Of a stretch of 64,000 bases of DNA, positions 49,715 to 61,459 are shown in pieces. The translations under genes were made by a program, and so were the position numbers. Source of the DNA: Mogibacterium sp. (lineage in GTDB: Bacteria; Bacillota; Clostridia; Peptostreptococcales; Anaerovoracaceae). The notes under the pieces were generated by a model, which saw only the letters and a list, made by a program, of their open reading frames with translations, was not told where the DNA came from and ran no database searches. Where the stretch lies: contig JAFRJV010000033.1 of the NCBI GenBank assembly GCA_017432075.1, forward strand, positions 20,168 through 84,167. The letters run 5' to 3'. The first letter of the stretch is position 1. Each line of letters opens with the position of its first letter.

Positions 49715-50266
49715 TTAACCGTAATTCAGCGCCTTGCGGATCTTTTTCCATCCGGGCATGAATCTGTCCATGAGTGCATAAAAGTCCGGGCCGTGGTCCG
49801 GTACAACTGTATGCACCAGTTCGTGCAGAATAACATAGTCGAGCTCCGCGTCGCTTCTGGTGGCTAACATAAGGCTGAGGTTGATATGATGCGTATTTGT
49901 ATTGCAGCTTCCCCAGCGTGTGTGCATGTCACGTACTGTCCATCCGTTGCAGTACAGACCGGTCACCTCTTCTATCACAGGAAGTCTGGCTTCGATGCGC
50001 CTTTTAAGATGGGCTCTCATTGCCTCCTTTTCGGCCTTATCCACAGGCTTAGGGTGGGCAAGCGATCTCGCGCGTACGCGCGCCACGTTCTTATCGATCC
50101 AGTCCCTGCGGCTCCGCACGAATCCTATCACTTCCCTGTCAGGCACCAGATAAGGAGCACTGATCACTATGCGTCCGTCAGGCTCCTTGATCCTCATATT
50201 CATCCTTTTGATACGCTTTCTGGTCAGTTCGACCTCAAGCCCGTCAATGTAAATAATTCTGGTCAT
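49715..50266 (-). CDS. YgjP-like zinc metallopeptidase
   Basis: 183 residues. The zinc site is HELVH (148-152) with a further His at 158 in VVPDHGPDF, as in the YgjP/SprT-like group. The conserved RWGSCNTN block precedes it, and the final MPGWKKIRKALN is typical. The peptide substrate is unknown. First gene of the five-gene operon with the antiporter, DUF445, ABC ATPase and FtsX permease; the antiporter start follows its stop by 14 bases. Confidence 0.9.
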   Translation of the reverse strand: MTRIIYIDGLEVELTRKRIKRMNMRIKEPDGRIVISAPYLVPDREVIGFVRSRRDWIDKNVARVRARSLAHPKPVDKAEKEAMRAHLKRRIEARLPVIEEVTGLYCNGWTVRDMHTRWGSCNTNTHHINLSLMLATRSDAELDYVILHELVHTVVPDHGPDFYALMDRFMPGWKKIRKALNYG

Positions 50267-50376
50267 ACATAGTTATTTTACCATAAATCAGACGATACTT
50301 TATGTTGCGCGTTTCAAAATGATATACTGTTTGCAAAAGATCGTGACGGCATTGCCGTAAAGCAAGGAGGTTTATG

Positions 50377-50727
50377 ATGCTGGCAGTATGTTACCCGAGG
50401 TGCAGCACCTGCAGGAAGGCCGTGAAATGGCTGGAAGACAACAATATTGAATATACATACAGGGATATAAAGACAGATAATCCGACAGAAGAGGAACTCA
50501 GGGAGTGGCATGCTATCAGCGGACTTCCTCTGAAGAGGTTCTTCAACACAAGCGGGATGCTGTATAAGGATATGCATCTTAAGGACAGGCTGCCGGATAT
50601 GAGCGAGGATGAGCAGTTCAGACTGCTTGCAAGCGACGGGCTGCTCGTAAAAAGACCTATCGCAGTTTCAGACAGCAAGGTTCTCGTCGGGTTCAGAGAG
50701 GCTGAATGGGAGGCTGCATTCAAGTAG
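50377..50727 (+). CDS. ArsC/Spx-like thioredoxin-fold protein
   Basis: 116 residues. The N-terminal CxxC lies in YPRCSTCRKAVKWLEDNNI, and RLPDMSEDEQFRLLASDG and VKRPIAVSDSKVLVGFRE are ArsC-family blocks. The length is that of Spx and YffB-type proteins. It could be a glutathione-independent arsenate reductase-like enzyme or a stress regulator; the Arg-Pro-Ile of the ArsC C-terminal loop is present (KRPIAV). AGGAGG stands six bases before the ATG at 50377, with another ATG three bases earlier. Confidence 0.88.
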   Translation: MLAVCYPRCSTCRKAVKWLEDNNIEYTYRDIKTDNPTEEELREWHAISGLPLKRFFNTSGMLYKDMHLKDRLPDMSEDEQFRLLASDGLLVKRPIAVSDSKVLVGFREAEWEAAFK

Positions 50728-50780
50728 TTTTTAAGCATACTGAAAGACCGGACATAATGATGGGATATCAAGGCAATAAA

Positions 50781-50810
50781 AGAGACTCGCTTATAGGCGA
50801 GCCTCTTTTT
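50781..50810 (+). terminator. Terminator between ArsC-like gene and agcS
   Basis: Stem AGAG-A-CTCGC / GCGAG-C-CTCT with a six-base loop and a T-run on the plus strand. It serves both convergent genes. Confidence 0.88.
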
Positions 50811-50828
50811 GTCGTTTTTATTTGAGGA

Positions 50829-52256
50829 TTACTTCCAGCAGTCTACCTTGTCATCAGACAGTCCGATGTTGGCAGCCTTGAAGTGAGGAGCCTTGCCCTC
50901 TTTCTTCTGCTTTGTGTAATCATCGAGAGCCTTGACAGCAACTCCGCCGAGGATAGCGATAGTAGGAATGTTGCATACTACCATGAGTCCCTGGAACATA
51001 TCAGCTGTATCCCATACGAGACCTGCGCTTGAGATTGCACCGAGGAATACGAGGATGATAGCGATAACTCTGAAGATCATAACCTCTGTCTTTGTCATGT
51101 CTCTCTTGAGAATGAATGCGAAGCATCCTTCGCAGTATGAGTAGTTACCGATCAGAGTAGTGAACGCGAACAGTGTCATCGATATAGCGATGAATACAGG
51201 TCCGAAGCCGCCGAGTGATGTGTGGAGGCATGTCTGTACATAACCTGCCGCATTGGCTCCGCCGTCCTCAAGCACGTAGTCAGCAGGATTTACTGACATT
51301 GTGGACAGGCACATGAATGCTGTTGCAGAGCAGATCAGCAGTGTGTCGATGAATACGGACAGTGTCTGAACGAGACCCTGCTTTACCGGGTGAACTACGT
51401 CAGCCTTGGCAGCAGCGTTCGGAGCGGAACCCATACCAGCCTCATTGGAGTAGAGACCTCTCTTGAGTCCCCACATGATAACGGATCCTGTGAAACCTCC
51501 GAAGATTGCCTGGAAGTCAAATGCTGTGCTGAAGATCAGTCCGAACATTGCTCCGAAGTTCTTTGCGTTGAGAACGAGAACTACGAGAGAAATAGCAACG
51601 TAGAGAACTCCCATTACAGGTACGAGGAATCCTGTTACGTCTGTCAGTTTCTTTGCTCCTCCGAGGATAGTAGCGGCAAAGAATACAGCCAGAATAACTC
51701 CGATTACCATAGGAGTCGACTTCTCATTGTAGAAGCTGAAAGTTGCAAATGTCGACTGGAGGTTGAATGCAGCGAGCATGTTGTAACCTACGGCATATGT
51801 GAAGATGATCAGTATCGAGAAAATGACACCGAGCCATCTCTGGCCGAGGGCGTTCTGCATGTAGTACGAAGGTCCTCCATAATATGTGCCGTCATCAGCT
51901 TTCTTCTTATAGATCTGTGCAAGTGTGGACTCGATGAATGCGTTTGCGCCGCCGAATATAGCGGTGATCCACATCCAGAAGATGGCTCCAGGTCCACCAA
52001 GAATGATAGCGGTACATACACCGATGATGTTTCCTGTACCTACACGGGAAGCTGTCGAAACCATCAGGGCTCCGAATGACGAAATGCCCTTTTCATCAGC
52101 CGGTTTCTCGCTGACAACTTTGAACATCTCTTTGAACATGCGGATCTGTACACCCTTTGTTCTGATCGTGAAATAGATACCTACAGCGATCAGGAACAGA
52201 GGCACGATGTATGGCTTGTACAGAATGTTGTTCATGAAACCTACAAAAGCACTCAT
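50829..52256 (-). CDS. Sodium:alanine/glycine symporter (AgcS family)
   Basis: 475 residues with ten or more membrane helices. Family blocks: GALMVSTASRVGTGNIIGVC, GGPGAIFWMWITAIFGGANA, GTYYGGPSYYMQNALG, RGLYSNEAGMGSAPNAAA. Imports alanine or glycine with Na+. AGGAG lies before the start. It is probably monocistronic, ending at the terminator shared with the ArsC-like gene. Confidence 0.95.
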   Translation of the reverse strand: MSAFVGFMNNILYKPYIVPLFLIAVGIYFTIRTKGVQIRMFKEMFKVVSEKPADEKGISSFGALMVSTASRVGTGNIIGVCTAIILGGPGAIFWMWITAIFGGANAFIESTLAQIYKKKADDGTYYGGPSYYMQNALGQRWLGVIFSILIIFTYAVGYNMLAAFNLQSTFATFSFYNEKSTPMVIGVILAVFFAATILGGAKKLTDVTGFLVPVMGVLYVAISLVVLVLNAKNFGAMFGLIFSTAFDFQAIFGGFTGSVIMWGLKRGLYSNEAGMGSAPNAAAKADVVHPVKQGLVQTLSVFIDTLLICSATAFMCLSTMSVNPADYVLEDGGANAAGYVQTCLHTSLGGFGPVFIAISMTLFAFTTLIGNYSYCEGCFAFILKRDMTKTEVMIFRVIAIILVFLGAISSAGLVWDTADMFQGLMVVCNIPTIAILGGVAVKALDDYTKQKKEGKAPHFKAANIGLSDDKVDCWK

Positions 52257-52420
52257 ATAATTCTCCTTTTTGATTTACCCTTTAACTTTTAAAATTAGGT
52301 TTATAACAGATAGCCGGCAGCATATGATACCGGCTTTCATTTGGCTTATTTTATCAAAACAGGCTGAGCCTTGTCTATAATGTGAACAAATTGTGATGAA
52401 AAATGTATAATTGTATACAA
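52257..52420. other. Intergenic region agcS / selenoprotein gene
   Basis: AT-rich. It holds the agcS promoter region and, at 52312-52335, the hairpin AGCCGG / CCGGCT with a 12-base loop. On the minus strand the hairpin follows the selenoprotein stop by about 85 bases and could end that transcript, though its T-tract is poor. Confidence 0.45.
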
Positions 52421-52747
52421 TTATGCCGGCGGCTGCCAGATACAGCATACCGCAGCAGGTTTTATGCCGTCGAGTTCAAACTTCTCTATCCACGGATATT
52501 TTTCATATCTGATGGCCGCGTTCTCTTCGAGAAGCACGCCGTGAACCGGCACGTAAACAGCCCCTATCTGCGATTCCTCCCGGATGTAGCCCTCGGCATA
52601 CTCCGATCCGTCTCCGCCGGTAAAACTTACCGACACCTCCGCCTTGGAGGGATCACATCAGGTCCGGGCATCATCGGTCATAAGAACAATGTCTTTGTAA
52701 CCGAGCATTGCCATATATGCTATTGCATTGTCATTCAGCCTTATCAT
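52421..52747 (-). CDS. Small selenoprotein with in-frame UGA (Sec30-Cys31 motif)
   Basis: 108 residues if the TGA at 52658-52660 is read as selenocysteine. Codons 1-29 (MIRLNDNAIAYMAMLGYKDI onward) and 31-108 lie in one frame. The UGA sits in ART-U-CDPS, a Sec-Cys pair, and the C-terminus has another Cys pair (AAVCCIW, 101-102). A hairpin with a GG-containing loop directly follows the UGA. The ATG overlaps the upstream gene's TGA as ATGA, so the start is fixed by coupling. Layout recalls HesB-like or CC/Se-motif small (seleno)proteins of Clostridia; function unknown. Conventional gene finding would call only residues 38-108. Confidence 0.75.
52631..52660 (-). promoter_or_regulatory. SECIS-like stem-loop at the UGA codon
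   Basis: Immediately after the TGA the minus strand folds CCTCC (52646-52650) with GGAGG (52636-52640) around loop AAGGC. After one mismatch a further four pairs (TGAT / GTCG with two wobbles) extend the stem. The loop starts 12 bases after the UGA and contains GG, as bacterial SelB-binding SECIS elements do. Confidence 0.7.
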
Positions 52748-53232
52748 AGTTTCACGAAGTGGAGTTCATTTCCGTGCTTCTTGATGAGCTTTACTACGTC
52801 GCGTGTATTGATAAACACGGTAGCTGTATTGTCGCATGGATGGATGCCCATGAGCCTGTTCTCGAAATCCTTGTCCATGTAAACGACTACATCCTTTTCA
52901 TCATTTGCCAGTACGCCGAAAGGAGTGACTGCTCCGCGTATGAGCCCCATCTTTTCCATAAGGTCTTCCTCGGAGGCGAATGTGAGAGGTCGTGTATCCT
53001 GCGCCTTGCGGAACTCCTTGAGGTTTACTTTCTTGTCTTCAAGGCATGTGATGAGGTAGTACTTGCGCTTCTTGTCATCACGGACGAAAAGGTTTTTGGC
53101 GATCTGTTCAGGATGCGGCAGATTGCACTCGAGCATTTCGTCTATCGTGTAGACCGGCTTGTGTTCGACTATCTCATATTTTATCTTGCTGTCATCAAGG
53201 ATCTTTACTATGTCTTCCTTTGTAAGCGCCAT
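52744..53232 (-). CDS. Prolyl-tRNA deacylase (YbaK/PrdX/ProX family)
   Basis: 162 residues. Family blocks: IVEHKPVYTIDEMLE, HPEQIAKNLFVRDDKKRKYY, the conserved Lys in LITCLEDKKVNLKEF, and IRGAVTPFGVLANDEKDVVV. These hydrolyse Ala (or another wrong amino acid) from tRNA-Pro. In Clostridia the PrdX version lies in the D-proline reductase (selenoenzyme) operon; no prd gene is seen here. Its stop is coupled (ATGA) to the selenoprotein gene. It lies 15 bases after the HerA-like gene. Confidence 0.92.
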   Translation of the reverse strand: MALTKEDIVKILDDSKIKYEIVEHKPVYTIDEMLECNLPHPEQIAKNLFVRDDKKRKYYLITCLEDKKVNLKEFRKAQDTRPLTFASEEDLMEKMGLIRGAVTPFGVLANDEKDVVVYMDKDFENRLMGIHPCDNTATVFINTRDVVKLIKKHGNELHFVKL

Positions 53233-53247
53233 TTTTCTATCCCTTTC

Positions 53248-54954
53248 TTACTTTTTGCCCGTGAGTGTTCCGAGGAGATTTCTGCCGATGGCAGAGCCGA
53301 TGTTGCCTCCGATGGTGCGGCCCTTTTTGCCGAGGACCGCTTCACCTATGGTCTTGCCTATCTCTCTGCCGATGGTACTTCCCGTGGATCTGATGACCTG
53401 CTTTGTGCCTGACTTGCCCAGATAATTATCTGCGATCTCCCCTATAGTTGATCTGCTTTCCTCTTCAGCTTTTGCTGCAGGTTTTACTTTCGGCTGCTGC
53501 ACCGGCTGCTGAGCAGGTTCATAATCTATCATTATGCCTCCATCGTCCGCGGCCTGAGCTGAAGGCTCAGCTGCAGGTATACCGGAAGTGTTGCCGTATA
53601 CCTGCCCGTCAGGCGCGGTATACGATCCGGCGCCCGGCGCCGCGGCCGCACCCGGTACACGTCCCGTGATGACCTCGTATGCAGATACGTTGTCCACCAT
53701 CGTGAGGTACTTATTATTGAGCGGCGAATAATCCACCGCGTTTCTTCTCTCCTCTTCCGTAATAGCTCCCATGCGGCTTTCAGGCGGAAGTATAAATGCA
53801 TACTCAGCCACCGAAGGAGCACCTTTCTCATCGAGCACCGAGACTACCGCCTCGCCCGTTCCGAGGTTCTGCATGAGCGTCTTGGTGTCGAACGCAGGAT
53901 TCTCCCTGAAAGCATCTGCCGCCGCATTCAGCGCCTTCTGCTCAGCCGGAGTATACGCATGCAGTCCGTGCTCGATCTTGTTCCCGAGCTGCGACATCAC
54001 TGCTCCCGGAATATCTCCCGGACTCTGTGTCACGAAGAATATCGAGACACCTTTCGATCTGATCAGCTTTACTACCTGCTCGATCTTCTCAAGCAGGACT
54101 TTCGACGCATTCTTAAAGAGCAGATGGGCCTCGTCGAAGAAGAACACCATTTTCGGTTTCTCCGGGTCTCCCACTTCAGGAAGCACTTCGAAAAGCTCGG
54201 ACAGCAGATACAGCATGAACGCCGAATACAGTCTAGGCTTGTTTATCAGCGTCTCTGCATCCAGGATATTGATGATCCCTCTTCCGTCCGGTGCGGTCAG
54301 GAAGAGATCCCTGATATCTATCGCCGGCTCGCCGAAAAATATGTCTGCTCCTTCAGACTCGAGAGCGACTATAGCCCTTATGATCGCAGAAGCTGACTGC
54401 TGAGGGATAAGACCGTAATCCATCTTGAACTCGCTTGAATGATCTGCACAGTATTGCAGAGTGGCCTTCATATCCTTTGTATCAGTAAGGATCAGTCCGA
54501 GATCATCTGCGATCTTGAAAACGACCTGCATCAGCTCTGTCTGTGTATCATTGAGGTCGAGCACCTGACTTAAGAGCAATGGTCCCATCTCCGACACAGT
54601 AGTGCGCAGCGGTGTACCGTTCTGTGCATATATGTCGAATATCGATACCGGGAATCCCCGGTAGCTGAATGTATCCCTTATCTCAAAGCGGTCCAGTCTC
54701 TTCTGCATGCCTTCACTGTCAGTACCCGGCACCGCTATGCCTGCCATGTCTCCCTTTACATCTGACATGAACACAGGCACGCCTATCTGTGAAAAGCTCT
54801 CGGCAAGGACCTTTAGTGTAACGGACTTTCCCGTACCCGTCGCACCGCAGATAAATCCGTGTCTGTTGGCTTTATCAGGCCTCATGCATATCTTATCGCC
54901 GAGCGTTTCGCCATCGCCCTTTCTGGCGAAATAAATCATTCCGTTGTCTACCAT
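53248..54954 (-). CDS. HerA-like ATPase, DUF853/YjgR family
   Basis: 568 residues. Walker A GATGTGKSVTLKVLAE near 38, Walker B VFFFDEAHLLF near 268, and the ISIFFVTQSPGDIP sensor region match YjgR-type HerA ATPases, DNA-pumping relatives without clear cellular role. The C-terminal 130 residues are low-complexity (Ala, Pro, Gln) and end in a repeated Gly-rich basic segment (GREIGKTIGEAVLGKKGRTI). First gene ahead of the deacylase and the selenoprotein gene; divergent from the M16 peptidase. Confidence 0.92.
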   Translation of the reverse strand: MVDNGMIYFARKGDGETLGDKICMRPDKANRHGFICGATGTGKSVTLKVLAESFSQIGVPVFMSDVKGDMAGIAVPGTDSEGMQKRLDRFEIRDTFSYRGFPVSIFDIYAQNGTPLRTTVSEMGPLLLSQVLDLNDTQTELMQVVFKIADDLGLILTDTKDMKATLQYCADHSSEFKMDYGLIPQQSASAIIRAIVALESEGADIFFGEPAIDIRDLFLTAPDGRGIINILDAETLINKPRLYSAFMLYLLSELFEVLPEVGDPEKPKMVFFFDEAHLLFKNASKVLLEKIEQVVKLIRSKGVSIFFVTQSPGDIPGAVMSQLGNKIEHGLHAYTPAEQKALNAAADAFRENPAFDTKTLMQNLGTGEAVVSVLDEKGAPSVAEYAFILPPESRMGAITEEERRNAVDYSPLNNKYLTMVDNVSAYEVITGRVPGAAAAPGAGSYTAPDGQVYGNTSGIPAAEPSAQAADDGGIMIDYEPAQQPVQQPKVKPAAKAEEESRSTIGEIADNYLGKSGTKQVIRSTGSTIGREIGKTIGEAVLGKKGRTIGGNIGSAIGRNLLGTLTGKK

Positions 54955-55122
54955 TTCTGCCTCCTTTGAACGAGGTTCTTTCAGTAATTGTAAACATTAT
55001 TATATCATGGCATATCGTGGCATGCACTTTAATTGCACCCGATATTGGTATATCATTATAGGGTATTTTCGGCCCTGAAGAGGGTCAATGATCATAAAAT
55101 CAATACTACCGGAGTATAACAA

Positions 55123-58023
55123 ATGACATTAAATGACAAATTGCACGGTTTCACCGTGACCAGTATCCGTGATATCAAGGAGATCGGAGGCAGGCTCGTT
55201 GAGATGGAGCACGACGTCACAGGTGCCAGACTGGTCTGGGCGGATAACGGCGATGAGAACAAGCTCTTCTCAGTCGGTTTCAAGACCCTCCCGGAGGACA
55301 GCACAGGCGTGTTCCACATACTTGAACACTCAGTTCTCTGCGGTTCGGAAAAATATCCTGTCAAGGAGCCGTTCGTTGAGCTTCTGAAGACCTCCATGAA
55401 CACATTCCTCAATGCGATGACCTTCCCTGACAAAACAGTTTACCCGGTCTCGAGCCGCATAGAGCAGGACTACCTGAACCTGATGGGGGTCTACCTCGAC
55501 AGTGTCTTCAATCCCAATGTCCTGAAAGATCCCAACATCTTCTATCAGGAGGGATGGCATATCGATACTGAAGGCGACGAGCCTGTATACAAGGGTGTCG
55601 TGTTCAATGAGATGAAAGGAGCAATGTCGGAAGTGGATTCAGTCGCTGATGAAACGATGACCGGCATGTTGTTCCCTGACAGCTGTTACGGCTTCAATTC
55701 GGGAGGAGATCCAAAGAACATTCCGGATCTGACATACGATGCATTTATCAAGCAGTACAAGAGGTATTATCACCCTTCAAATTCATATTTCTACCTCGAT
55801 GGTGATATCCCTCTCGATGCAACCCTGGCAAAGATCGAGGAGTACCTATCCGGATTCGACCGTCTCGAAAGCGTACCTCAGCTCGTTGCTCAGGATCCGG
55901 TGAAGTCTGAGAAAGCTGTTGCTTTTGCTGCAAGCGGTGAAGACGACAAGCCGCTCATCTGCTTCGGAAAGATCATCGGCAACTGGAAGGACAGAGACAA
56001 AATGCTCGCTCTCAGCATAATCATGGAGCAGATCGCAGACTCCAACGAGTCGCCTCTTAAGCGTGCGGTCCTTTCCTCCGGACTTGCTGAGGATATGGAG
56101 ATCTACGTTTCAGACGGAATAGCTCAGCCATACCTTATGATGCTGTTCCGCGGGATCAGGGATGGCGATAACGCAAAACCTGATGCATCATCACTTGAAA
56201 GCATCGCAGAACGTCTTATGACCATCGTAGAGGAAACCGTTAATAAGATAACTGCGGATGGCTTTTCAAAGAGAGACCTTGAAGCATCGGTCAATCAGAC
56301 TGATTTCAGGTTCAGGCAGTATCCTGAACCTCAGGCTCTCTACAGGATGATCTCCGCATACTCGTCGTGGCTCTACGGAGGCGACCCTTCCATGTATCTC
56401 ACCACAGATGCTTCGATCGCTTCCGTGCGTTCCATGATCGAAAACGGAGAAATGGAGGATATCGCAAGAGAGGTACTGGCTGACACATCCATGCTCTCCA
56501 GGCTCATCCTCATACCTGACAGCAGTTTTGCCGAAAAGGAAGCTGCCCGGGAAGCTGCCCGCGTCAAGGCTGAAGTCGATGCGCTGGATGGTCCGGGCAG
56601 AGAAAACCTTGAGGAACTCAACAGGAAGCTGGTCGAATGGCAGCAGAGCGAAGACAGCGAGGAAGCGCTTGCAACCATACCTCAGCTCAACATCGCGGAT
56701 ATCGACCCGATGCCTCAGCTGATCCCTACCGAGATAAAAGATGTTTGTGGAGCAAAGATCATGTTCCATCAGGTGCCGTCGAACGGCATCGTGCATATCA
56801 ATGCATACTTCCCTATAACACAGCTGGCTCTGAACGAGCTTCCGGCAGCTGCGCTTATCACGGAGTTTTTCAGGGATCTCCCTACAGATAAATATGATGT
56901 ATTCTCTCTCCAGAATGAGATCCGCATGTATATAGGCGGTATCTCGTTCGGGCTCGACATACTCGCAAAAGACAATGACTATGAAAACTGCACGCCTTGC
57001 ATCAGAGTCAGAGCTTCAGTCCTCGAGGATAAGCTTTCAAATGCCGAAGAACTCATCACAGGCATACTGACAGGAACAAAGTTTGACGACAAGCAGATGA
57101 TGCGCGAACTGATCACCCAGATCGATGAGGATTCCAAGAGGACAGCAATGGCAAACGGCCACCGTCTCGGTCTCTTCGAAGCCAGATCGCACTGGTCGGC
57201 CAGGGATGCAGCTGCTGAAGCCGTCAACGGTCTCAGTTTTATGCATTACATGCATGGTATGAGCTCTGCTTCGGATGATGAACTTGACGAGTTCACATCG
57301 TTCGCAGAGAAAGTAATCGAAAAGAGCATCTGCAGGCAGAACGCCATAATCGGCGTGACTGCAGACAGCTGCCCTGACCTTTCAGGATTCATGGAGCTGC
57401 TTCCGGACGGTGAAGCGATGCCGGAGACAGTCTGCTATGAGTCGTCACTGCCGCGCCGTATGGGCATCGAGATACCGGCTGCAGTATCGTTCGCCGTTAC
57501 CTCATATGACCTGAAGCGTGACGGCCACACAATGAGCGGAAACTACCAGGTGGCCGCAAACATCATATCGCTCTCCCATCTATGGAACAGCATCAGAGTA
57601 CAGGGCGGAGCATACGGAGCTTCAATGTCTGCAGGCAGAACAGGCAGTCTTTTCTGTCACACGTACAGAGATCCGAGCCCCGGCCGCTCACTTGATGTAT
57701 TCAAGACGATACCGGACTTTCTTACCGGATTCGCGGCTGATGATAATCTGGATATAGACGGTTTCATAATATCGACTATCGCTTCTACGGAACCTCTGCT
57801 CTCACCTGCAGCAAAAGGCAGGTCCGCAGATGACTTCTGCCTGTCCGGCTTTACCGATGAGGACAGGATCAGGATCCGCAGAGAAATCCTCAATACAAAA
57901 GCCGGCGATCTTGCCGGCCTGAGCGATGTTCTTAAGGATATGGCAGAAAACGGAACTGTCTGTGTTGTAGGGCCAAAGGCAGCGCTTGAAGCCTGTGAGG
58001 ATCTGGAAATATACGCATTATAA
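55123..58023 (+). CDS. M16C family zinc metallopeptidase (insulinase/PreP-like)
   Basis: 966 residues, the length of presequence-protease-type M16C enzymes. The inverted zinc motif HILEH lies at residues 65-69, with the distal Glu in NEMKGAMSEV about 85 residues on. Further PreP-like blocks are TFLNAMTFPDKTVYPVSS and YHPSNSYFYLDGDI. It degrades unstructured peptides in the cytoplasm, as no signal peptide is visible. GGAG lies eight bases before the ATG. A strong terminator follows. Confidence 0.95.
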   Translation: MTLNDKLHGFTVTSIRDIKEIGGRLVEMEHDVTGARLVWADNGDENKLFSVGFKTLPEDSTGVFHILEHSVLCGSEKYPVKEPFVELLKTSMNTFLNAMTFPDKTVYPVSSRIEQDYLNLMGVYLDSVFNPNVLKDPNIFYQEGWHIDTEGDEPVYKGVVFNEMKGAMSEVDSVADETMTGMLFPDSCYGFNSGGDPKNIPDLTYDAFIKQYKRYYHPSNSYFYLDGDIPLDATLAKIEEYLSGFDRLESVPQLVAQDPVKSEKAVAFAASGEDDKPLICFGKIIGNWKDRDKMLALSIIMEQIADSNESPLKRAVLSSGLAEDMEIYVSDGIAQPYLMMLFRGIRDGDNAKPDASSLESIAERLMTIVEETVNKITADGFSKRDLEASVNQTDFRFRQYPEPQALYRMISAYSSWLYGGDPSMYLTTDASIASVRSMIENGEMEDIAREVLADTSMLSRLILIPDSSFAEKEAAREAARVKAEVDALDGPGRENLEELNRKLVEWQQSEDSEEALATIPQLNIADIDPMPQLIPTEIKDVCGAKIMFHQVPSNGIVHINAYFPITQLALNELPAAALITEFFRDLPTDKYDVFSLQNEIRMYIGGISFGLDILAKDNDYENCTPCIRVRASVLEDKLSNAEELITGILTGTKFDDKQMMRELITQIDEDSKRTAMANGHRLGLFEARSHWSARDAAAEAVNGLSFMHYMHGMSSASDDELDEFTSFAEKVIEKSICRQNAIIGVTADSCPDLSGFMELLPDGEAMPETVCYESSLPRRMGIEIPAAVSFAVTSYDLKRDGHTMSGNYQVAANIISLSHLWNSIRVQGGAYGASMSAGRTGSLFCHTYRDPSPGRSLDVFKTIPDFLTGFAADDNLDIDGFIISTIASTEPLLSPAAKGRSADDFCLSGFTDEDRIRIRREILNTKAGDLAGLSDVLKDMAENGTVCVVGPKAALEACEDLEIYAL

Positions 58024-58046
58024 AAAAGGGCTCCGGCCCTTTTTTT
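58023..58046 (+). terminator. Terminator of the M16 gene
   Basis: Stem AAAAAGGGC / GCCCTTTTT with a four-base loop and T-run, directly after the stop. It also abuts the end of the convergent DUF3343 gene. Confidence 0.9.
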
Positions 58047-58295
58047 CTACAGATTATCTGCTTTGTATATCTGAGTGTATGTGCCGTCTTCGTTGCAGAT
58101 GACCATCTGTTCCATCTCATCGTGAGCAGGGTCAAAAAGCGGCTCCGGTGCCCTGTACTTTACACAGGTACCGCAGCTGCTGCTGAGACTTCTTGGCACG
58201 GGCATGGTGCGTGCCTCAAGCCCCCTGGACTTGCAGAGACGCTCAAACCTTATCGAGCCGAAATGCATAAAAAAAGTAGCGATATAAGTTTTCAT
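58047..58295 (-). CDS. DUF3343 protein, putative Se/S carrier
   Basis: 82 residues. The pattern MKTYIATFFMHFGSIRFERL, then a PVPRSLSSSCGTC motif, is DUF3343, whose members lie next to YedE/YedF and are thought to carry selenium or sulfur on the Cys. Here Cys41 and Cys44 form a CxxC. It is the last of the yedE-yedF-DUF3343 group but is separated from yedF by a strong hairpin. A TATAAT with extended TGC just upstream of the start may give it its own promoter. Confidence 0.82.
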   Translation of the reverse strand: MKTYIATFFMHFGSIRFERLCKSRGLEARTMPVPRSLSSSCGTCVKYRAPEPLFDPAHDEMEQMVICNEDGTYTQIYKADNL

Positions 58296-58343
58296 ACATA
58301 CATTCCATCTTAAGAATCTTAACTACAGGGACAATTATAGCAT

Positions 58344-58369
58344 AAAGCGGGGGATCGCTCCCCCGCTTT
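58344..58369 (-). terminator. Hairpin between yedF and DUF3343
   Basis: Perfect 11-bp stem AAAGCGGGGGA / TCCCCCGCTTT with a four-base loop. The T-rich tail on the minus strand (TTTATGCTATAATT) contains a possible -10 box for DUF3343. Confidence 0.75.
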
Positions 58370-58380
58370 ATAATGCGTTT

Positions 58381-58581
58381 TTATCTGGAGATCTTGAGCA
58401 GATACTCTCCGCCCATGTCTTCAACCTCAACATTGTAACCCTGGCTCCTGGCAAAACGTGTAACGTTTTCGAGTGGGGCCTGAGCGTCTACCATGACTTC
58501 ATAGTAGTCATCCTTGCTCTTCATTGCCTTCTGAGTCATGATCACAGGCATCGGGCAGGACAGTCCTCTTGCATCTACCAT
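58381..58581 (-). CDS. yedF: TusA/SirA-like sulfur (selenium) carrier, YedF type
   Basis: 66 residues, TusA fold. The active Cys lies in VDARGLSCPMPVIMTQKAM, with the conserved CPxP. TusA relatives shuttle persulfide sulfur. The shorter partner of YedE is the selenium-metabolism YedF; full YedF proteins have a second, DsrE-like domain that is missing here. It follows yedE by 19 bases and so shares its transcript. Confidence 0.87.
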   Translation of the reverse strand: MVDARGLSCPMPVIMTQKAMKSKDDYYEVMVDAQAPLENVTRFARSQGYNVEVEDMGGEYLLKISR

Positions 58582-58600
58582 ATTGTACCTCCCGTCTTTG

Positions 58601-59683
58601 TTACGCCGCTTCCTTTGCAGGTGCTTTCTCTTTAACGTACGTATTGACTACGCCGATAAGAGCAACAACAACGATGCCGATGATAACAGCGATCTTTCCT
58701 GCAGGTGTAGGACCTTCGCCGCTGGAAGCAAGTCCGAAGTTGTGGCAGAATGCAGCGCCTACCATGAGGCCGAGAACTGTAACTGCGCTGTCAGCATTTC
58801 CTTCTCCGGACATAACGAGCTGTCTGAGCGGGCATCCGCCGAGGAGCACGCAGGCAAATCCGACAAGGAGCATGCCGAGGCAGTTCCAGAGTCCGTCAGT
58901 ATGTGCGATCGGCTGTTCAGTAAATCCGAGTTTGAATCCGCCGAGTGCAAGATTAGTAACCAGTGCAGCAACAAGAATAGCGATGAAACCCCAAAGAAGT
59001 CTTGTCTCTTTGAAGAGAACGAGGTCTCTCATTCCGCCGACCATGCACAGTCTTGTTCTCTGAGCAAGAACACCTACAACGAGTCCTGCAGCGAGTGACA
59101 GAATGACTGCTGCGTGCATCGATCCAGGTCCTTCTTCCGAGAAAGCGATGAATGCAGGTCTTGCGATAAGGAGAACAAAGATCACTACCTCAAGGATAGG
59201 CATCCAGTAACCCTCACCTGCAGTCAGGCTGTAAGTCCTCTTGAGCGAGTATCCGTTCTTGAGGAAGAAGATACCGCAGAAGATTCCGATCACGAATCCT
59301 ACGAGACCGAGGAGAGCATTCAGATCTCCGCCTGCAAGTCTCAGGATCATTCTGAACGGGCAGCCGAGGAACATGAGACATCCTACCATTGCGAAGAATC
59401 CGAGAACGAATCTTGTCATAGGAGCACTTCCGCCCTTTGAGCCGAATTCCTTCTTTGCGAATGCCGCAACGAATGCGCCGATCACGATTCCGATGATCTC
59501 AGGTCTGATATACTGTACCGGAGGTGCCTTGTGAAGTCCGAGGCCGCCGGCTGTGTCACGTAGGAAGCATGCAATGCAGAATCCCATGTTCTTTGGGTTT
59601 CCGAGGAAAGCAAGTCCTGCTGCGATGACACCTATCACGAGACCCGCGATGATGATCATCAACTTGTCATTTTTCTTTTCCAT
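58601..59683 (-). CDS. yedE: YedE family putative selenium transporter
   Basis: 360 residues from the ATG at 59683 (GGAGG eight bases upstream; the frame extends further, but without a ribosome site). About ten membrane helices in two YeeE/YedE (sulf_transp) repeats, each with conserved Cys and Gly: GFCIACFLRDTAGGL, LGCPFRMILRLAGG, TRLCMVGGMRDLVLF and LGGCPLRQLVMSGEG. The family co-occurs with selenophosphate synthase and YedF and is believed to take up selenium compounds. It heads the trio that would feed the selenoprotein gene at 52.7 kb. Confidence 0.93.
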   Translation of the reverse strand: MEKKNDKLMIIIAGLVIGVIAAGLAFLGNPKNMGFCIACFLRDTAGGLGLHKAPPVQYIRPEIIGIVIGAFVAAFAKKEFGSKGGSAPMTRFVLGFFAMVGCLMFLGCPFRMILRLAGGDLNALLGLVGFVIGIFCGIFFLKNGYSLKRTYSLTAGEGYWMPILEVVIFVLLIARPAFIAFSEEGPGSMHAAVILSLAAGLVVGVLAQRTRLCMVGGMRDLVLFKETRLLWGFIAILVAALVTNLALGGFKLGFTEQPIAHTDGLWNCLGMLLVGFACVLLGGCPLRQLVMSGEGNADSAVTVLGLMVGAAFCHNFGLASSGEGPTPAGKIAVIIGIVVVALIGVVNTYVKEKAPAKEAA

Positions 59684-59729
59684 ATCGATCCTCCATATAA
59701 TCCATATTAGAAAAATCCCAAAAAATACC

Positions 59730-59754
59730 ATATGAGGTGTAAAACACCTCATAT
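59730..59754. promoter_or_regulatory. Perfect inverted repeat in the yedE leader
   Basis: ATATGAGGTGT / ACACCTCATAT, 11 bp each, with a three-base spacer, 47 bases upstream of the yedE start. On the minus strand it is followed by GGTATTTTTTGGGATTTTT, so it can fold as a terminator-like hairpin or serve as a repressor site. Confidence 0.6.
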
Positions 59755-59869
59755 CAGTTTATCGCCGCATTTAATTATTAACCAATTGTCTTAATTGATT
59801 ACCGTTTTTGGCAGTATAGTTTTTCTCAATAATTGTTAACAGTTTTTGCAAGCAGCCCCTGTATAATAC

Positions 59870-60613
59870 TCAATGCTTTGGCTTATATCCCCTTGTAGTT
59901 TCAGACGCAGCGTTTTTCCGCTTTCCTGCCTGCTTGTTATCGTAAGAAAATTCAAGGGCAGGATCTGTCTTTACTCTTCCGCCTCCGGATAGAACAGCTG
60001 CAAACAGGAACAGCAGTGTCGCGCTGAGCAGTATGCCTCCGATGATATCTGTGAACCAGTGCACTCCGCACCACAGTCTTCCGCCGACAGTTACCAGAGT
60101 AGTCAGGAAGCACAGAACTCTTACGAAAGCTCCGAAAAGGTTGCCGAAATACTTGTCGGAAACCATCATCACAGCGATCATGACTGTCATTATCAGCATA
60201 GTGTGAGATGACGGGAACGATGCTTCAGGCGCTGTCTCGCCCGGCATGATGATCGGCCGGTAATTTATTATGAATTTTTCAAAGAATACATAGCATCCTA
60301 TCACGGCTATGAACAGCCCGCCGAGTGCCCAGATCTCCCTGTCGACTTTCAGCAGGCTCCTGCGCTTTATCAGCTGAACGAATCCTGCGAGTGCGAACAT
60401 TCCGCATACTGCTATGGCTCCGTATCCAATATAATCCGTTATCTCATACCAAAGCATGTTGACACCGGTAAGATTGTGTACCAACTGGTTTAGATGTGAA
60501 AAACCGACCTCAGTCCCTGCAGGTCCTATCGCTGCAACATCATATATCCTGAGCAGCACTATAAGTCCCGCAAACAATGCTCCCGTAATGACAGCTCCTA
60601 CGACTTTTTTCAT
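59870..60613 (-). CDS. PAP2 family membrane phosphatase
   Basis: 247 residues with about six membrane helices. The three phosphatase motifs are KFIINYRPIIMPG, SFPSSHTMLI and GGRLWCGVHWFTDIIGG. It would dephosphorylate undecaprenyl pyrophosphate or a lipid phosphate. The tail after about residue 215 is basic and cytoplasmic. It lies 27 bases after the mscS-type gene in the same direction. Confidence 0.92.
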   Translation of the reverse strand: MKKVVGAVITGALFAGLIVLLRIYDVAAIGPAGTEVGFSHLNQLVHNLTGVNMLWYEITDYIGYGAIAVCGMFALAGFVQLIKRRSLLKVDREIWALGGLFIAVIGCYVFFEKFIINYRPIIMPGETAPEASFPSSHTMLIMTVMIAVMMVSDKYFGNLFGAFVRVLCFLTTLVTVGGRLWCGVHWFTDIIGGILLSATLLFLFAAVLSGGGRVKTDPALEFSYDNKQAGKRKNAASETTRGYKPKH

Positions 60614-60640
60614 TTGAACGCCTTATTCCTTTCCAAGGTA

Positions 60641-61459
60641 TTATTTGCTTACGCTGATTGGTGTTGACGGTCTTGCGATGCCTGCCTTGTTGAGCGCGGC
60701 AGGTATCTCCTTCATGAGCACGCCAAACTCATTCCAGTAATCTGAAGTCCTGGTCCAGACTCTTACGGTGTATGTAAGGCCGCCCGGTACACCTGCAGTT
60801 ATCAGCACCTGCGGAGCCGGATTGTCGAGTGCCCATTCCGACTTTTCGACGACATCAGACAATATCTTAAGGACCTTATCTGAGTCCTCAGAGCCCGCGA
60901 TATCGAAGTTGAGGTCTACCCTTCTCAGTTCCTCTACTGTTGCGTTGCAGATCGTGGAATTCATCAGATTGCCGTTAGGAATGGATATCCTGCGGTTATC
61001 GAGCGTCGTAAGAACGGTATACACAAGAGATATGCTCCTTACTACTCCCTCTTCTCCTCCTGCAACGATGTAATCGCCCACACTGAACGGACGGAATATG
61101 AGGAGCATGATGCCTCCTGCTATGTTGCTGAGCGCTCCCTGCAGCGCAAGACCTATGGCTACTCCCACAGAGGCGATCGCCGCGATCACCGAGGACATCG
61201 GAACACCGAGAAGTGCGATTATCGATACAGCGAGCACCACATAAAGAGCGGCCTTCACAAACGTCGTGATGTATCCGGCTGCTGTTGTATCTATGGACTT
61301 CATGGATTTCATTTTCCCGAGAGCCTTGATCAGCTTCCTGATAATAAAGCTGCCCACGATATAGATGACTATCGCCAGGACGATCTTCAATCCTATGTCC
61401 ATTGCGCCGTCGCTGATCTTATCAACGAGTTTTTGCAGATTATTGATACTTGCTTCCAT
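60641..61459 (-). CDS. Small-conductance mechanosensitive channel, MscS family
   Basis: 272 residues. Three membrane helices lie in the first 125 residues. The pore helix TM3 has the Gly/Ala pattern SVGVAIGLALQGALSNIAGG, followed by RPFSVGDYIVAGGEEGVV and the beta domain with ISIPNGNLMNSTICN. It opens under membrane tension to release solutes. GGGAG precedes the start. It is probably in an operon with PAP2. Confidence 0.94.
   Translation of the reverse strand: MEASINNLQKLVDKISDGAMDIGLKIVLAIVIYIVGSFIIRKLIKALGKMKSMKSIDTTAAGYITTFVKAALYVVLAVSIIALLGVPMSSVIAAIASVGVAIGLALQGALSNIAGGIMLLIFRPFSVGDYIVAGGEEGVVRSISLVYTVLTTLDNRRISIPNGNLMNSTICNATVEELRRVDLNFDIAGSEDSDKVLKILSDVVEKSEWALDNPAPQVLITAGVPGGLTYTVRVWTRTSDYWNEFGVLMKEIPAALNKAGIARPSTPISVSK

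Follow-up and report, generated by a model that had tools for sequence, protein, structure and literature searches.

The 64,000-nucleotide (nt) stretch of Mogibacterium sp. contig JAFRJV010000033.1 analysed here, hereafter the window, carries on its minus strand a short gene interrupted by one in-frame TGA (Table 1). This gene very probably encodes a selenoprotein in which the UGA is decoded as selenocysteine (Sec), and which we place as distantly related, at sister level, to the CC/Se motif family; its fold is predicted to be of the IscA/HesB type. The frame runs from ATG 52747 to TAA 52421 with the TGA at 52660-52658 as its sole interruption, and the deduced protein is 108 residues long, C31 coming directly after U30. 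Reading of the sequence and its translation bears out the frame described in the initial annotation, as well as the overlap, in the form ATGA, of its start with the stop of the preceding ybaK-like gene (53232-52744). The same annotation had proposed that a selenoprotein of 108 residues, containing a Sec-Cys pair, is made in a Sec-decoding genome, a proposal that conservation of the UGA and the decoding genes of the host now support.

The genome bin of the window, 83% complete, holds in a row a tRNA-Sec gene (C52:55214-55307), selA and selB, together with selD; all score above curated cut-offs. The four genes whose presence had been set as a check on the first prediction (selA, selB, selC and selD) are therefore all there. 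The selD gene of this genome (L126, G000:C52:40844-41782) likewise has a TGA within its reading frame. Presence of the selenoprotein gene goes with that of selB scored above its cut-off: among 89 genomes of family f1, 38 have both, one the gene only, 14 selB only and 36 neither (p=4.7e-12 by Fisher's test, which ignores kinship). Within the genus the corresponding figures are 37, one, five and four for 47 genomes (p=0.003). The lone genome with the gene and no selB above the cut-off (G013) has its tRNA-Sec match at the end of a contig, so that its selB may have been lost in an assembly gap.

The in-frame UGA is invariant in the sets of relatives compared. A search of 148 related genomes gave matches in 39, comprising 38 of the 47 genomes of the genus and one of another genus of the family, and an in-frame TGA lies within the match in 39/39; the match of G031 holds an additional TAA and that of G035 is split into two pieces. 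Scanning a contig collection of 84,980 species with two search patterns placed outside the Sec site led to 39 loci, a set that overlaps with the former one. Most of these loci come from metagenome bins that carry the label Mogibacterium or Clostridiales, and many of the titles point to the gut of goats, sheep or horses. Aligned together with the window they make 40 loci (alignment A4, 40 rows of which 39 are distinct), where this codon is always TGA, with no TAA or TAG in any row, and a Cys codon follows it in 40/40. Alignments A1 and A3 each omit one locus that A4 retains (L054 and L094, the same gene with a broken frame); this copy from one relative keeps the UGA and terminates at a TAA after codon 83, a sign of decay or of an assembly error.

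When the window is compared with eight close loci chosen from the 39, synonymous codon differences exceed non-synonymous ones both before and after the UGA in 8/8 comparisons. Since the UGA is kept across loci and the synonymous excess is found on both sides, the two parts are, as judged from sequence, one protein under purifying selection. No close version with Cys at the Sec place was found in the 148 relatives, the 84,980-species contig collection or 391 genomes of the class. In these 391 genomes a profile search matched only the window's own genome, G078 and, weakly, one CC/Se protein with a Cys-Cys pair (E 0.006). The search for homologues with Cys at this position, advised by the initial annotation, thus brought out a family with Sec throughout but no close Cys-containing members. 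We propose that these proteins form a new subfamily, with Sec alone, and never Cys, seen at this place in the sequences compared.

A pseudogene or a sequencing error, at which the many metagenome bins and the further TAA of L094 could hint, has a negligible probability as the source of a TGA that recurs in the same frame in 39 genomes between two parts with a synonymous excess. Just as negligible is a changed genetic code assigning UGA to tryptophan or glycine: the frame would stay open under such codes, but TGA is the terminal stop in 22/40 of these genes, the Sec decoding genes are present, and in the alignment with the CC/Se family the UGA corresponds to Cys or Sec. It is also very improbable that the UGA is a real stop separating a 29-residue peptide from a distinct 71-residue protein started at GTG 52636. 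An open reading frame (ORF) of 71 amino acids with this start does exist, but the start is not conserved, because 12/40 loci carry ATA, GTA, CTG or GTT there, the others having GTG (24) or ATG or TTG (4). Moreover, the parts before and after the UGA align jointly, as a single protein, with CC/Se members in which Cys makes the frame continuous, and neither TAA nor TAG replaces the TGA in any A4 row.

Two RNA hairpins follow the UGA. The published bacterial model of the selenocysteine insertion sequence (SECIS), as laid out in PMC13188914, has a loop of 3-9 nt with a G in the first two positions, a stem of 4-16 bp, a distance of 16-37 nt from the UGA and a minimum free energy of -7.5 kcal/mol or lower. 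The hairpin at 52634-52616 falls within this model, with a stem of 8-9 pairs and -9.7 kcal/mol. At this fixed place the G rule holds in 40/40 loci and the energy criterion in 32/40, the isolated hairpins of the other eight being weaker than -7.5 kcal/mol; in 5/40 loci the last pair is open in the minimum-energy fold, which leaves a 5-nt loop. Paired cells amount to 98.7% in A4, and to at most 54.5%, with at most 6 double-change cells, in a control where partners were slid by 1 to 3 columns. Two-sided changes occupy 17 cells versus 5.0 in shuffles, and the covariation score is matched by 0/500 shuffles. Two other counts are not above shuffles, namely pairs showing a double change (3, attained in 89/500) and further pair types (9, attained in 471/500). 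Among the double changes, two that fall at third codon positions are GTA..TTT to GTG..TTC and TCG..ACC to TCA..ACT. RNAalifold, unprompted, predicts this helix and no other; Rfam yields nothing in the interval 50000-61000 with an E-value of 5 or below.

Random synonymous recoding served as a control. For the window gene it produced a stem of at least 8 pairs at this location in 0.6% of trials, while 1.4% had a 9-pair stem with a loop G somewhere within the permitted distance range. Averaged over the 40 loci, recoding yields a stem of at least 7 pairs there with a probability of 2.8%, and 39/40 loci have one. Synonymous differences, which affect about 40% of codons elsewhere, drop to 12.5% over codons 31-46, spanning both hairpins.

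The initial annotation had attributed the SECIS function to the first hairpin (52650-52636). That stem-loop exists; allowing for two registers, 40/40 loci form at least 4/5 of its pairs, and synonymous sites are held over it as over its neighbour. The spacing claimed for it nevertheless fails because its loop begins only 12 nt past the UGA (versus 16-37 nt in the model); in the window its loop opens with two A and so has no G at either position, and its covariation is not beyond shuffles in either register. We regard it as a quite improbable SECIS. It may still serve as a helper, since the suppression of synonymous change over codons 31-46 includes both hairpins. Hairpin 52634-52616, which fits the published model, carries covariation and is, as judged from sequence, under selection, appears the better SECIS candidate and is presumably bound by SelB.

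Pfam and NCBIfam give no family for the window protein at E up to 1. When 38 members were compared at E up to 10, NCBIfam returned a single weak match to each of six families (best CC/Se, 0.062; next NrdH, 0.065) and Pfam returned DUF7674 in 9/38 (best 1.7e-7) plus eight families, each limited to one or two members and none better than E 0.014. PF01521 is absent from these nine Pfam families, the curated cut-off of NF041239 is reached by 0/38 members, and the selenocysteine domain has no convincing match to a model of either database. Profile-profile comparison to NF041239, the CC/Se motif family, gives a strong match as judged by a shuffle control, with the vicinal UC/CC pair aligned. At the level of sequence profiles, the window family and the CC/Se motif family are thus distant sisters.

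The fold predicted for the window protein is that of IscA/HesB, the C terminus of the model having a low predicted local distance difference test score (pLDDT). Compared directly with the TIGR01911 profile, the window family scores 13.8, a value reached by 5/60 shuffles; its CC/Se cousins score 44.8 against the HesB-like profile, with 60 shuffles at most at 17.7. A sequence search of the PDB with A1 yielded one weak phage match only (E 0.19), and with A2, the CC/Se profile, mostly Q-beta capsid chains and one weak iron-sulfur (Fe-S) biosynthesis protein (E 1.4). The best Q-beta match, a fusion at E 6.7e-6, is perhaps a chance beta pattern. IscA/HesB proteins have three conserved Cys ligands. 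The Cys/Sec candidates for such ligands in the window protein are U30 and the C-terminal pair C101 and C102, found in 16/40 loci and missing by this pattern in 24/40 (L069 retains one Cys).

The family occurs in two sizes, 23 of the 40 loci encoding short forms (<130 amino acids, broken L094 included) and 17 long forms (>=200 amino acids) with a C-terminal extension. A short form is present in the cultured relative Mogibacterium kristiansenii (locus L088). In some long forms the extension matches DUF7674 (Pfam PF24722); one that was checked scores 31.8 bits versus a cut-off of 27, and 1/5 rescanned long forms matched at E <=0.01. The gene of the window is devoid of DUF7674. Both the long forms with their extra C-terminal part and the family relation (CC/Se motif, IscA/HesB fold) were overlooked by the initial annotation.

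Table 1. Features of the window around the selenoprotein gene, with the yedE, yedF and DUF3343 genes as context
Feature	Position	Strand	Remarks
Selenoprotein gene	52421..52747	-	108 codons, Sec at codon 30, TAA end; translated with TGA as U
In-frame UGA, Sec (U30)	52658..52660	-	Invariant in relative sets; profile-aligned with the CC/Se UC/CC pair
Proposed SECIS hairpin	52616..52634	-	8 bp, loop GUU at 52626-52624, 31 nt past UGA
Upstream small hairpin CCTCC-AAGGC-GGAGG	52636..52650	-	Possibly spacer or accessory helix
ybaK-like aminoacyl-tRNA editing domain protein	52744..53232	-	Pfam tRNA_edit 99.8 bits; stop overlaps selenoprotein start as ATGA
Se/S carrier-like (DUF3343) protein (context)	58047..58295	-	Pfam Se_S_carrier 48.9 bits, cut-off 25
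Short YedF-like TusA domain protein (context)	58381..58581	-	Pfam TusA 65.2 bits; TIGR03527 58.6 bits, below cut-off 110
YedE family putative selenium transporter (context)	58601..59752	-	TIGR04112 526.9 bits, cut-off 200

The neighbourhood of the gene varies. The initial annotation suggested co-translation with a prolyl-tRNA deacylase; the overlap with the ybaK-like gene is present in the window, but the association is weak: ybaK lies directly upstream in 14/40 loci (13/39 of the fetched ones and the window). In one clade ybaK stands with what we take, from ORF reading, to be insulinase-like and alanine-symporter-like genes. Gene clusters c1, c4 and c6, which are metN-, metI- and metQ-like in a Pfam scan of L078, lie downstream of long forms in 12 loci (L078 and 11 others). 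No steady partner gene was found across the neighbourhoods (the ybaK clade, the metNIQ-like clade and other, mixed ones), and no Fe-S genes among 19 distinct neighbour proteins scanned. Elsewhere in the window, the yedE, yedF and DUF3343 genes reported at 58-59.7 kb are confirmed by NCBIfam and Pfam, yedF as a short TusA domain. This YedF-like protein (58381-58581) consists of a 66-residue TusA domain only, versus the 194 positions of TIGR03527; its extension through a hidden UGA was rejected because the stop is TAA.

CC/Se relatives with TGATGA in frame, predicted to place a Sec-Sec pair at the CC position, were found at nine loci (L133-L141) in 8/391 genomes of the class. They were first met as weak matches of the CC/Se model, and their NCBIfam CC/Se scores are near the cut-off, 3/9 lying above it. 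A profile made from the nine loci finds the same nine, and no more, in the 391 genomes. A stem of at least 5 pairs with two G in the loop occurs at a fixed place, about 20 nt past the second UGA, in 8/9 loci. It is part of the minimum-energy fold in 6/9; in L136 and L138 alternative pairings are favoured, and the hairpin of L133 is a different one. The catalogue in PMC13188914 gives one Sec for the CC/Se family, and two Sec in a row, if inserted, would be unusual. Searches of the open-licence literature, judged by titles and abstract openings, gave no paper on the subfamily of the window or on adjacent Sec-Sec pairs in bacteria; two papers, on algae and on sea squirt, contain the term 'Sec-Sec'.

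We favour the following scheme. A ribosome arriving at UGA codon 30 would meet SelB, loaded with Sec-tRNA, on the hairpin 31 nt downstream, leading to insertion of selenocysteine. Sec30 and Cys31 would then be adjacent, in the position that the active pair occupies in the CC/Se family. A Sec-Cys pair is able to form a selenenylsulfide or to hold a soft metal. Sec30-Cys31 could thus be a selenol-thiol redox site or a site binding soft metals or chalcogens, presented by an IscA-like frame acting as carrier and assisted in one clade by the second Cys pair, C101 and C102, at the C terminus. We put forward such a function tentatively, at somewhat less than even chances. Somewhat more doubtful is the broader idea of an IscA-fold branch of A-type-carrier-like proteins organized around selenium chemistry and serving metal or chalcogen handling, not Fe-S assembly. 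In this branch Sec would have become fixed as the ligand or carrier atom and, in the long forms, been joined to a further domain, while cousins would have moved on to two adjacent selenocysteines.

A strict A-type carrier, in which Sec30 and the C-terminal Cys pair would together bind iron or an Fe-S cluster for transfer to a recipient, seems unlikely. It would agree with the IscA fold match, with the matches of CC/Se cousins to Pfam Fe-S_biosyn (15/28 at E up to 1, best 1.3e-5) and with the resemblance of the C-terminal Cys pair, where present, to the C-terminal CxC of IscA. That pair is, however, missing from the majority of loci, Fe-S genes are absent from the scanned neighbours, and the C terminus of the model is of low confidence.

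In this genus, 38/47 genomes have a selenoprotein gene for which standard gene prediction would give a product truncated at codon 29 or begun too far downstream. A homology-based selenoprotein finder needing Cys homologues may likewise miss Sec-only families, as PMC12013277 says of its own tool. Joining of the CC/Se family to the IscA/HesB fold provides a testable idea of CC/Se function.

Among known systems, IscA/SufA (Pfam PF01521) and HesB-like proteins (TIGR01911) have, by prediction, their fold in common with the window protein. Thirteen HesB-like selenoprotein loci (L142-L154) gave matches in 11/118 genomes, mostly below the TIGR01911 cut-off, which 1/13 loci in 1/118 genomes exceeds. 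The HesB-like selenoprotein of Methanococcus maripaludis has a function that is likewise not clear, according to PMC11097638. Motifs differ: HesB-like selenoproteins carry UxGP, as listed in PMC13188914, whereas the window family has U-C-x-x. NF041239, the CC/Se motif family (seleno)protein (Moor_selen_rel), is alike in the length of the shared domain, the UC/CC place and the C-terminal half. The window family is set apart from it by the use of Sec only, the motif T/S-U-C and the extra C-terminal part of 17/40 loci.
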